Of a stretch of 64,000 bases of DNA, positions 21,712-25,499 are shown in pieces. Under the pieces are notes generated by a model that saw nothing but the letters and a program-made list of their open reading frames with translations, was not told the DNA's origin and made no database searches. Each line of letters begins with the position of its first letter. Position 1 is the first letter of the stretch. Source of the stretch: Lachnospiraceae bacterium (GTDB lineage Bacteria; Bacillota; Clostridia; Lachnospirales; Lachnospiraceae); assembly GCA_011959105.1 (NCBI GenBank), contig BLLU01000149.1, positions 1 to 64,000 of the forward strand, in the 5' to 3' direction. The position numbers and the translations under genes were made by a program.

Positions 21712-22818
21712 TTATAACTGTTTTTCCCGATATTTTTGCAGTTCAGTCCGCAGCCTGTTATTCTCGGCTGCCAACTGCGTATTATGAACCTCCAGTACGC
21801 TGTTCTGGTTCTCCAATTCGCTGTTTTGATTCTCCAACTCGTTTTTTCGGTTCTCCAGCCGACTGTTCTGGTTCTCCAACTCACTGTTCTGAGATTCCAG
21901 CTTTTCCGCTTCTATCTGTAGACAGGCAAGCCTGCTCTCCATCTCGTCCATCATATAGCGCACAGTATTCTGATCCATGATTCTGAGTTCTTCTGAAAAA
22001 AATCCCATCGCTTTCACCATATCCTTATTCATATTATACAGCGTTTCATACATAGCGATAAACTGCGGGAATGCCTCGAACAATTCCACCAGGCGTTCGG
22101 GATTGTCCTCGCATAGAAATGTGAGCCAGGCTTCTTCCAAAGTGTTGATCGCTTTATTCTGCATATTCTTTCTGAATATGTCAAGAGAAATCAAAACGCA
22201 CCTTTGCAATAAGTCCATCTCCAATCCCGTATCAAATATATGGCGGGACCGATGCAGGCATGTCTCCGGCATGTGACGCAATTCCGGCGGACTGTTCTCA
22301 TATAGGACAATTAAATACACTTTTTTGATCTTTCCATATGAAAAATCCCTTTTCTCCCTGGCTCTGATCCGCTTGTACTGCCGCAGCATCATATCGGACA
22401 AATAGCAGGAGCAGCGGGGTCCTGTGAACATATACCCAATCTTCTGCACCTCCACATTGGCTATGGAACCGTCCCCCAATTCTACCACAATATCTGTCAC
22501 AAGCAGTGAGTTTTCGTCTTCCAGGCGCACACCGTCATTGGGTAGTTGCTTTAATATCTTCACAGGTTCTCCCAAGACCACCTCCAGAAATGATTCCAAT
22601 CTGGAGGGATCGTACTCCGGATTCAACACTTCTTTAAAATAGGAATCATACAGCAGATTATGCCCTTTTATACCGGTACATCGATCCAGATATTCCTTCT
22701 GTTGTTCATCGCTCCAGGACCCAAACAGTTCTTTTAATTCACCCCTCCTTTCAATTTTGTCCTTCAGCTCCCCAACTGAAGGCAGGTTGAAGAAATTGTT
22801 CATCGTTTTGTATACCAT
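21712..22818 (-). CDS. Rpn / PD-(D/E)XK nuclease-family transposase-like protein with C-terminal coiled coil
   Basis: NLLYDSYFKEVLNPEYDPSRLESFLEVVLGEPVKIL...VTDIVVELGDGSIANVEVQKIGY matches the pattern of this family; C-terminal LENQNSE heptads; AAGGAGGA before ATG 22818. Confidence 0.82.
   Translation of the reverse strand: MVYKTMNNFFNLPSVGELKDKIERRGELKELFGSWSDEQQKEYLDRCTGIKGHNLLYDSYFKEVLNPEYDPSRLESFLEVVLGEPVKILKQLPNDGVRLEDENSLLVTDIVVELGDGSIANVEVQKIGYMFTGPRCSCYLSDMMLRQYKRIRAREKRDFSYGKIKKVYLIVLYENSPPELRHMPETCLHRSRHIFDTGLEMDLLQRCVLISLDIFRKNMQNKAINTLEEAWLTFLCEDNPERLVELFEAFPQFIAMYETLYNMNKDMVKAMGFFSEELRIMDQNTVRYMMDEMESRLACLQIEAEKLESQNSELENQNSRLENRKNELENQNSELENQNSVLEVHNTQLAAENNRLRTELQKYREKQL
21795..21905. 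repeat. ~21-bp tandem repeats encoding LE(N/S)QNSE heptads
   Basis: GTTCTGGTTCTCCAA(C/T)TC-type units repeated about six times (plus-strand reading). Confidence 0.75.
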
Positions 22819-22881: not shown

Positions 22882-22982
22882 AAAAAAATAGAGAAAACAT
22901 AAACCCGGCATCCGTAGATGTGAGTTTTTGTTTTCTCTATCCCTTGTGTTATAAGTGTATTCGATCTTTTCACCGCTGTCAA
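22882..22982 (-). promoter_or_regulatory. Cassette A: TTGACA-N17-TACACT promoter followed by hairpin and U-tract terminator, upstream of the Rpn-type gene
   Basis: Minus strand: TTGACA (22977-22982), TACACT (22954-22959), hairpin ATAGAGAAAACA...TGTTTTCTCTAT (22888-22940) then T7. Confidence 0.75.
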
Positions 22983-22986
22983 GTAT

Positions 22987-23403
22987 TTATATACTTTCAG
23001 AGGACTTTTTTTCAAGTATTTTTCCCAGAAGAGCCTCCTGCAGCACCTGCGAGAAATTCAGGTTTATGGAAATTGCCGCCTCGTTCATCCACTCAGGTAT
23101 ACTCAAGGTTTTCTTAACCGCCCGCGAATTTGTACGCTTCTTATAAGCCAACATGTCAAACTCTATCACCACCAGGAACAAATCCTGCCCCGCAGCAATT
23201 GCCCTGGGGTCTGAGCTGTCCGGAAGCGGTCTCCCTTCCTTATCATACTCCGCCAGCACCAGGCCCAGCGCTTCCACAGCCTTCTCATAAGCCTGCGCCA
23301 AATCCTCACCCTGGGTATGGCATTCGGGTATGTCGGGAAATGAAACCCGGAAACTGCCGTTCCGGGCAATCTGAAACAGTGCGGGATAAAATAATTTTTT
23401 CAT
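22987..23403 (-). CDS. HicB-family antitoxin-like protein with C-terminal ribbon-helix-helix (no HicA seen)
   Basis: MKKLFYPALFQIARNGSFRVSFPDIPECHTQGEDLAQAYEKAVEALGLVLAEY; C-terminal TLSIPEWMNEAAISINLNFSQVLQEAL; GGAGGTG SD. Confidence 0.82.
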   Translation of the reverse strand: MKKLFYPALFQIARNGSFRVSFPDIPECHTQGEDLAQAYEKAVEALGLVLAEYDKEGRPLPDSSDPRAIAAGQDLFLVVIEFDMLAYKKRTNSRAVKKTLSIPEWMNEAAISINLNFSQVLQEALLGKILEKKSSESI

Positions 23404-23436
23404 AAGGCACCTCCATAAAATCGGATTGTTTTCCAC

Positions 23437-23535
23437 AAAAAAAGAGAAAACCCAGACCCGGCATCCAAAGATACGGACCTTCTGTTTTCCCTTTCTATTA
23501 CAATCCAGTGTATTCTCTTTTAGGGGATCTGTCAA
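23437..23535 (-). promoter_or_regulatory. Cassette B: TTGACA-N17-TACACT promoter followed by hairpin and U-tract terminator, upstream of hicB
   Basis: Minus strand: TTGACA (23530-23535), TACACT (23507-23512), hairpin AGGGAAAAC...GTTTTCTCT (23443-23492) then T7. Confidence 0.75.
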
Positions 23536-23630
23536 GAAACTGATGTGAAAAAATGATAAATAAAAAATTAGTACTGGAAATATTCAGGCCGATGTGGTAA
23601 AGTGTATTGGTAAAGACAGGAGGAGGAGCA

Positions 23631-23642
23631 ATGCGGAGATAA
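23631..23642 (+). promoter_or_regulatory. Candidate 3-codon uORF (MRR*) in the leader of the ABC-F gene
   Basis: AGGAGGAGGAG-CA-ATG CGG AGA TAA. Confidence 0.45.
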
Positions 23643-23677
23643 TCTATTAACAGAAATTGCACAGGGATTCCGGCATT

Positions 23678-23722
23678 ATGGCAAACATGTTTCGTGGGCC
23701 GTGTTCTTTGTGTAACCGTTGA
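23678..23722 (+). promoter_or_regulatory. Candidate leader peptide ORF MANMFRGPCSLCNR* upstream of the ABC-F gene
   Basis: ATG GCA AAC ATG TTT CGT GGG CCG TGT TCT TTG TGT AAC CGT TGA; its 3' end contains the antiterminator arm. SD is weak. Confidence 0.4.
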
Positions 23723-23798
23723 TAGATATCTGGCCATATGTTTAATCCTGTGAAGAGGGGTTTCCTTTGCCCGAAACATGGAATAACATGCGGAGTCT

Positions 23799-23834
23799 GC
23801 TTTCGGTTACATATTGTAGCCGGAGGCATTTTTT
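23799..23834 (+). terminator. Intrinsic terminator inside the ABC-F leader (putative attenuator)
   Basis: GCTTTCGGTTAC-ATATT-GTAGCCGGAGGC (12 pairs incl. G-U) then ATTTTTT. Confidence 0.7.
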
Positions 23835-23951
23835 ATGTGGCAAAATATCTTCTCCGGCAATATGCCCTTCAATGGCTGCATCCCGAAACAAAGGGATGGG
23901 AACCACAGGAAGCCGGCAGAAAATACAGGAACCACAAGACAGGAGGTATCT

Positions 23952-25499
23952 ATGTTACAGGTTAAAAATTTAAACATCTATCATAAAAAGGATCTGCGCC
24001 CCCTGGCGTCCGACCTCTCCTTTACTCTGAACAGAGGAGACAAAGCCGCCATAATCGGCGAGGAGGGAAACGGCAAGTCAACTTTGTTAAAACTCCTATG
24101 GGATCCGGCCCTGGTGGAAGACTATATTGAGTACGAGGGGGAAATTCTGAAAAACCAGGAAGTTTGCGGCTATTTACCCCAGGAATTGGACCCGGAAGAA
24201 CGGCAGAAAACCGTCTATGAATTTTTGTGCGGAGAACCCGCTTTTTTGGAGACGGATTACCGGGAACTGGCATCCATGGCAGGACAGCTGGGGCTTTCTC
24301 CAGACCTGCTGTACAGCGACACAACAATGGAAAAGCTCTCCGGCGGCGAAAAGATCAAGATCCAACTGATTCGGATCCTGAGCATGCGCCCCAGCCTTTT
24401 TCTGCTGGACGAACCCTCCAATGACATTGACATTGACACTCTGAAATGGCTGGAAGACTTTATAAACCACTGTTCTTCTCCCGTGCTCTATATCTCCCAT
24501 GACGAGACTTTGTTGGAGCACACCGCCAACATGGTTCTGCATATGGAGCAGCTGAAGCGCAAGACCGAAAGCCAGTGTACCCTGTTCCGGACAGGCTACC
24601 GGGAATATGTGCGCCTTCGCCAGGAAGGCCTAGAGAGGCAGGAGAGACTGGCTCAGGAAGAGAAGGCCGCCTTTGAAAAACAACAGGAAAAATTTCGCAG
24701 AATCTATGAGAAAGTGGAATATCGGCAGGACATCATTACCCGGCAGAACCCCGCTGGAGGAAGGCTTTTAAAGAAAAAAATGCATTCCCTCAAATCCATG
24801 AAGCGGCGTTTTGAACGTCAGGAAGAAAATATGACCAAACGGCCGGACACAGAGGAAGCCATTTTCTTCCGCTTCGCCCAGGGAGAAGGTGTTCCCGGAG
24901 GAAAATGGGTCATCGACTTCGAACTGCCTCAACTCATGGTGGAAGACAGAGAGTTAGCCCGCAATATCCGGCTGCAGGTCAGAGGGCCGGAAAAAATCTG
25001 CATCATCGGGAAAAACGGCGTGGGCAAAACCACATTGCTGCGGCTCGTGGCACAACAACTGCTGGAACGGACAGACATCCGGGCAGCCTACATGCCGCAA
25101 AATTACGAAGAACTGTTATCCCTGGACAAAACCCCGGTGGAATATCTTTCCCGAACCTGGGACAAAGAGGAAAACACAAGGATCCGCACTTATCTGGGAA
25201 GTATGAAATACACGGTCCAGGAGATGGACCACGCCATCCGTGAACTCTCCGGCGGCCAGAAAGCCAAACTGCTGCTGCTGAAAATGAGCATGGAACAGCG
25301 AAACGTGCTGATTCTGGACGAACCCACCCGGAACTTCTCCCCTCTGTCAGGTCCGGTGATCCGGGAATTGCTGCAAAATTTTCCGGGTGCAATAATCAGT
25401 GTCTCCCATGACAGAAAGTATATCCAGGAGGTATGCGACCGGGTGTTGGAACTGCGTGAAGAGGGGCTGCTGCCTGTAAACCCGGAGTCAAATACCTAA
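23952..25499 (+). CDS. ABC-F family ATPase (candidate ribosomal protection protein)
   Basis: Two ABC domains: GEEGNGKST...LSGGEKIKIQLIRIL...LLDEPSNDID and GKNGVGKTTLL...LSGGQKAKLLLLKM...ILDEPTRNFSP; no TM domains; AGGAGG at 23941. Confidence 0.88.
   Translation: MLQVKNLNIYHKKDLRPLASDLSFTLNRGDKAAIIGEEGNGKSTLLKLLWDPALVEDYIEYEGEILKNQEVCGYLPQELDPEERQKTVYEFLCGEPAFLETDYRELASMAGQLGLSPDLLYSDTTMEKLSGGEKIKIQLIRILSMRPSLFLLDEPSNDIDIDTLKWLEDFINHCSSPVLYISHDETLLEHTANMVLHMEQLKRKTESQCTLFRTGYREYVRLRQEGLERQERLAQEEKAAFEKQQEKFRRIYEKVEYRQDIITRQNPAGGRLLKKKMHSLKSMKRRFERQEENMTKRPDTEEAIFFRFAQGEGVPGGKWVIDFELPQLMVEDRELARNIRLQVRGPEKICIIGKNGVGKTTLLRLVAQQLLERTDIRAAYMPQNYEELLSLDKTPVEYLSRTWDKEENTRIRTYLGSMKYTVQEMDHAIRELSGGQKAKLLLLKMSMEQRNVLILDEPTRNFSPLSGPVIRELLQNFPGAIISVSHDRKYIQEVCDRVLELREEGLLPVNPESNT

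Follow-up and report, generated by a model that had tools for sequence, protein, structure and literature searches.

To our knowledge, little is known of how Rpn-like nucleases are kept silent until needed beyond the RpnS antitoxin of E. coli. Attenuation in a leader is a known kind of control, and the pR′-tR′ region of lambda is a promoter-terminator unit under Q-type antitermination. In the cell-death pathway alpBCDE, AlpA bypasses intrinsic terminators downstream of its target promoters (PMC7969949), LoaP reads through a leader terminator (dfn, mln; PMC12691694), and control of Rpn in E. coli involves an internally translated RpnS (PMC10327210). Here we describe a single start-then-stop element that precedes many Rpn-type nuclease genes and a toxin-less antitoxin gene in one genus of gut bacteria, an arrangement which suggests that these genes, being potentially toxic, are kept off and may be switched on together. 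Its control logic resembles that of AlpA/Q antitermination and LoaP leaders. Among open-access papers we found no description of this RNA motif or target-gene set, and an Rfam search of the cassette returned nothing above a gathering score, the weak matches to microRNA models being chance.

The window, a stretch of 64,000 nt from a Lachnospiraceae bacterium (contig BLLU01000149.1), carries two such cassettes around a hicB-like gene (Table 1). Cassettes A and B share one layout, TTGACA and TACACT separated by 17 bp, then 15–16 nt, a 47–48-nt hairpin and seven T's, and transcription from A would start near 22947. Promoters, spacing, hairpins and seven-T tails all lie where an earlier note on this DNA had placed them, and its claim that each gene sits behind its own promoter and an apparent terminator describes a real, repeated leader. 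Its comparison of the stems stands in part: GGATGCCGGGT is common to A and B, but the G-U pairs in the lower stem of B match A-U pairs in A, not G-C. Folded as RNA with their flanks, A reaches −29.1 kcal/mol (z = −9.65) and B −24.0 kcal/mol (z = −3.39), and no shuffle of either was as stable. Each cassette thus places a stable hairpin with an immediate T tract between promoter and gene, as expected of an intrinsic terminator or leader attenuator.

Table 1. Positions of the cassettes, their downstream genes and other features discussed in the text (window coordinates unless a contig or locus is named)
Feature	Position	Strand	Remarks
Cassette B, whole	23436-23535	−	upstream of hicB
Cassette B, −35 hexamer TTGACA	23530..23535	−	the same in nearly every copy
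Cassette B, −10 hexamer TACACT	23507..23512	−	17 bp from −35
Cassette B, terminator-type hairpin (AGGGAAAAC...GTTTTCTCT)	23443..23492	−	folding; covariance model E 8.3e-14
Cassette B, T tract	23436..23443	−	3′ of hairpin
hicB-like gene (HicB_lk_antitox, 138 aa)	22987..23403	−	no adjoining hicA; Pfam 34.5 bits, cut-off 27
Cassette A, whole	22882-22982	−	between hicB and Rpn-like gene
Cassette A, −35 hexamer TTGACA	22977..22982	−	
Cassette A, −10 hexamer TACACT	22954..22959	−	17 bp from −35
Cassette A, terminator-type hairpin (ATAGAGAAAACA...TGTTTTCTCTAT)	22888..22940	−	folding; covariance model E 6.0e-15
Cassette A, seven-T tract	22882..22888	−	
Rpn-like PD-(D/E)XK gene (PDDEXK_2)	21712..22818	−	47.9 bits, cut-off 27.4; D...ExQ motif TDIVVELGDGSIANVEVQ; C-terminal coiled-coil repeats
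Heptad run of the Rpn-like gene	21712-22010	−	LENQNSE-type
Leader of the ABC-F gene	23600-23960	+	terminator-like hairpin at 23798-23828
Cassettes before a 105-aa ORF	L157:3801-3853; L158:2168-2220		beside apparent Mu-like prophage
Copies of the ~130-nt leader	G000:C202:32426-32551, C250:54172-54300, C132:3220-3327		L187, L162, L051

Both genes had been named correctly, the nuclease in a broad sense: its product passes the PDDEXK_2 (PF12784) cut-off and stays below that of the NCBIfam Rpn family (TIGR01784; 22.2 against 52.1). Its C-terminal end is a run of near-identical heptads whose copy number differs among relatives, recalling the variable repeats reported for RpnS. The hicB gene is indeed an orphan. 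Close relatives (53–71% identity; L127 to L138 and L152) directly follow a hicA, recognized by eye, as in hicAB operons; no hicA adjoins the window gene, which does not form a HicAB module, and the cassette takes the place of hicA. The same substitution is seen in all four cassette-bearing hicB genes (window, G123, G021 and G152). The window order, an ABC-F gene, B-hicB-A-rpn and a chemoreceptor gene, recurs in G123. The ABC-F gene has a long leader of its own with a terminator-like hairpin, possibly an antibiotic-responsive ABC-F attenuator.

A covariance model built from 11 copies recovered A (6e-15), B (8e-14) and just two further true copies in the 4.6-Mb genome, so that the likeness of A and B is not due to chance. 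Because A and B belonged to the training set, the real test of the model lies in the two extra copies, both on contig C135, and in the wider survey. Each C135 copy precedes another PDDEXK_2 gene, so that three of the four cassettes stand directly before PD-(D/E)XK/Rpn-like genes and one before hicB (P ~5e-8 if genes were drawn at random, on an estimated gene number). Of its 11 PDDEXK_2 genes, 3 have a cassette, and most Rpn-like genes of cassette-bearing genomes lack one. The exact lower-stem palindrome GAGAAAAC(6-36)GTTTTCTC occurs in A, in both C135 copies and in one chance match inside a coding gene and nowhere else in the genome, B carrying the variant GGGAAAAC; the lower stem is therefore not generic here, despite weak matches at plain terminators in other genomes.

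In 9/138 genomes of the genus the model found 22 copies, of which 17 precede an Rpn-like gene, 4 precede hicB and 1 is decayed. The possibility, raised beforehand, that the cassette is a generic dispersed repeat unlinked to hicB or rpn genes is rejected by both the own-genome and the genus surveys, 21/22 copies directly preceding one or the other. The decayed copy (L044) lies behind an EAL-domain gene and has neither promoter nor rpn gene; at the orthologous place in the own genome, promoter, cassette and rpn are all present. The 17 Rpn-like genes span several barely related subfamilies. Most clear the PDDEXK_2 cut-off, two match it weakly (L065, L067), one weakly matches Transposase_31 (L074), and three (L072, L071, L073) match no family and show a D...ExQ pattern by eye. 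The leaders align well though some downstream proteins are barely alike (two subfamilies share 23.6% identity, E 6e-5), and none of these proteins resembles HicB. The proposed pairing of hicB with rpn through a common leader holds insofar as both genes carry it; however, Rpn-like genes in general are marked, hicB is a minority target, and two genomes (G021, G152) have a cassette and hicB with no rpn after it. Neither does the presence of hicB predict the cassette, relatives of the gene occurring in 69/138 genomes, mostly without it.

The weak model matches in G030/G003 (just 3′ of a tRNA gene, by eye) and G279/G273 are apparently plain terminators of other genes. Outside the genus, 397 genomes of the family gave just two matches of this weak kind. 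An exact-pattern search of GTDB species genomes returned records from Lachnospiraceae, a single unclassified MAG and two matches due to chance. Viral contigs yielded one chance match and two copies of a single locus, before a truncated rpn, in host-like DNA flanking an apparent Mu-like prophage. At L157 and L158 the cassette stands before just a 105-aa ORF, which matches the C-terminal part of the Transposase_31-type rpn at L074 and resembles a free-standing RpnS.

We mapped constraint as mean pairwise identity over the 20 copies that have a promoter. It reaches 98% in the −35 hexamer, 79% in the −10 and 76% in the hairpin, versus 34% in the 17-bp spacer and 33% and 31% upstream and downstream of the cassette. 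An unconstrained promoter search gave a 17-bp spacer in 20/22 copies, the −10 lies 15–17 nt from the stem, and the hairpin measures 47–48 nt from stem to stem. When all 22 copies are aligned, pairing holds in 93.7% of cells, and 10/21 pairs show compensatory (double) changes; 0/500 shuffles matched it on any structure measure, and although related sequences can beat shuffles without any structure, slid controls were also far lower. The compensatory changes are confined to the upper stem or its junction. Below it, nine pairs never vary save for G-U variants and one mismatch and show no compensatory change, so that pairing there rests on identity; this near-invariance raises the possibility that the lower-stem sequence itself may be recognized.

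We read the cassette as a promoter-proximal, cis-acting transcription attenuator that would define a small regulon of Rpn-like nucleases and hicB, and put the probability of this reading at about 0.62. A strong sigma-A-type promoter would start an RNA whose first ~65 nt form an intrinsic terminator hairpin; most transcription would end ahead of the gene, and the nuclease or HicB would be made solely from read-through transcripts. The conserved anatomy and the gene association can be read in the sequence, and we infer that termination takes place and is regulated. In all hicB copies, the gap from cassette end to ATG is 33–39 nt, ribosome-binding site included, too small to hold a second promoter; the window's hicB moreover has a divergent gene upstream, so that expression of hicB must depend on read-through. 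The transcript would begin only a few nucleotides before the hairpin and so offer no upstream RNA for an antiterminator, and since no antiterminator fold is available to the leader as an alternative, regulation would have to come in trans. A leader peptide was also rejected, as the apical ATG lies within the stem and some copies lack it. Sequence and geometry are alike in front of unrelated genes, and for this reason a single condition or factor acting in trans (an antiterminator, or changed RNA polymerase or NusA activity) would probably free all copies together. Such a leader, common to several nuclease subfamilies and a partnerless antitoxin, would mark a defined regulon and provide a handle in the search for its trigger factor.

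The strongest alternative is that the terminator is a passive damper, cutting expression of a toxic gene by a fixed amount with basal, unregulated read-through. Overproduction of Rpn proteins is toxic (PMC10327210), and we found neither a cis antiterminator nor a candidate trans factor; a mere damper, however, need not hold its sequence, its 47–48-nt length and its precise spacing to the promoter constant in front of unrelated genes, and we think it unlikely. Next comes a form of the second option of the earlier note, that the ~65-nt terminated RNA is itself the product, an sRNA acting in trans on other mRNAs, its copies placed by duplication. It would have its own promoter and terminator, a stable hairpin and several similar copies per genome. 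Yet, L044 excepted, every copy is directly followed by hicB or an Rpn-like gene, and those genes, hicB above all, would be left with no promoter of their own; as the stretch from the terminator to the start codon of hicB cannot accommodate another promoter, attenuation fits better and a free sRNA is decidedly improbable. That the leader merely hitchhiked with copied or mobile rpn genes, its likeness reflecting shared descent without selection, agrees with the clustering of copies in one genus and the horizontal movement of Rpn genes (PMC10327210), but is very hard to credit given hexamers, spacing and hairpin kept amid random flanks and a spacer far more diverged than the hairpin, and given targets that include the unrelated hicB, in whose lineage the cassette replaced hicA.

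The putative attenuator shares with Q and AlpA units a strong promoter, a short leader RNA with an intrinsic terminator, harmful genes and several targets. Unlike them, it has no evident factor-binding element between −35 and −10, where the spacer is not conserved; what is conserved is the hairpin of the RNA. LoaP leaders, also from Bacillota, likewise combine a conserved hairpin with an intrinsic terminator, there read through by a trans factor, but their recognition hairpin and terminator are two structures and their targets biosynthetic operons, whereas the cassette has one hairpin. No separate UNCG-type recognition hairpin lies upstream of its terminator, and the apical loop varies (UACG, UUUG, UGCA, UGUA and others). 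LoaP exceeds its curated cut-off in 1/9 cassette genomes versus 15/129 other genomes of the genus; with 8/9 cassette genomes lacking it and no association, LoaP is unlikely to be the releasing factor. The E. coli Rpn toxin-antitoxin genes resemble the cassette targets in their PD-(D/E)XK fold, variable C-terminal part and need for tight control. The words leader, untranslated and terminat- are absent from the text describing them (PMC10327210), and the putative control by the cassette differs from that by RpnS. A bolder version of the attenuator reading, which we offer tentatively and regard as possible but doubtful, is that a dedicated, non-LoaP antitermination switch recognizes the hairpin and turns on unrelated Rpn-like nucleases simultaneously with the toxin-less HicB, for instance in response to phage attack, the cassette having spread between genes and captured hicB after the loss of hicA.

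Other Rpn-like genes carry other leaders. An unrelated conserved one of ~130 nt (TTGCAA...TATGCTAATAT...AAAGCATATATTTCTTTTCAC...GGAAAATCTATGCTTT...AGCAGG), with no Rfam match, precedes other PDDEXK_2 genes in 23/138 genomes of the genus, and its existence implies that leader control of Rpn-like genes may be more general than the cassette motif. A few of its copies stand before different genes, namely an Mrr-like ORF (L189) and coiled-coil ORFs (L168, L180). A third leader (TGCTATACTGTG...GGCGTTTTGCC...ATTTTTTG) is common to another set of PDDEXK_2 genes (L053, L099, L105, L110, L111). Finally, a gene of the window's own Rpn-like subfamily without the motif (L113, G117:C274) has a TTGACA-type promoter and, before the gene, a terminator-like hairpin distinct from that of the cassette (CCTGCTG...CAGCGGG followed by T's), the same layout as the cassette in a different sequence.
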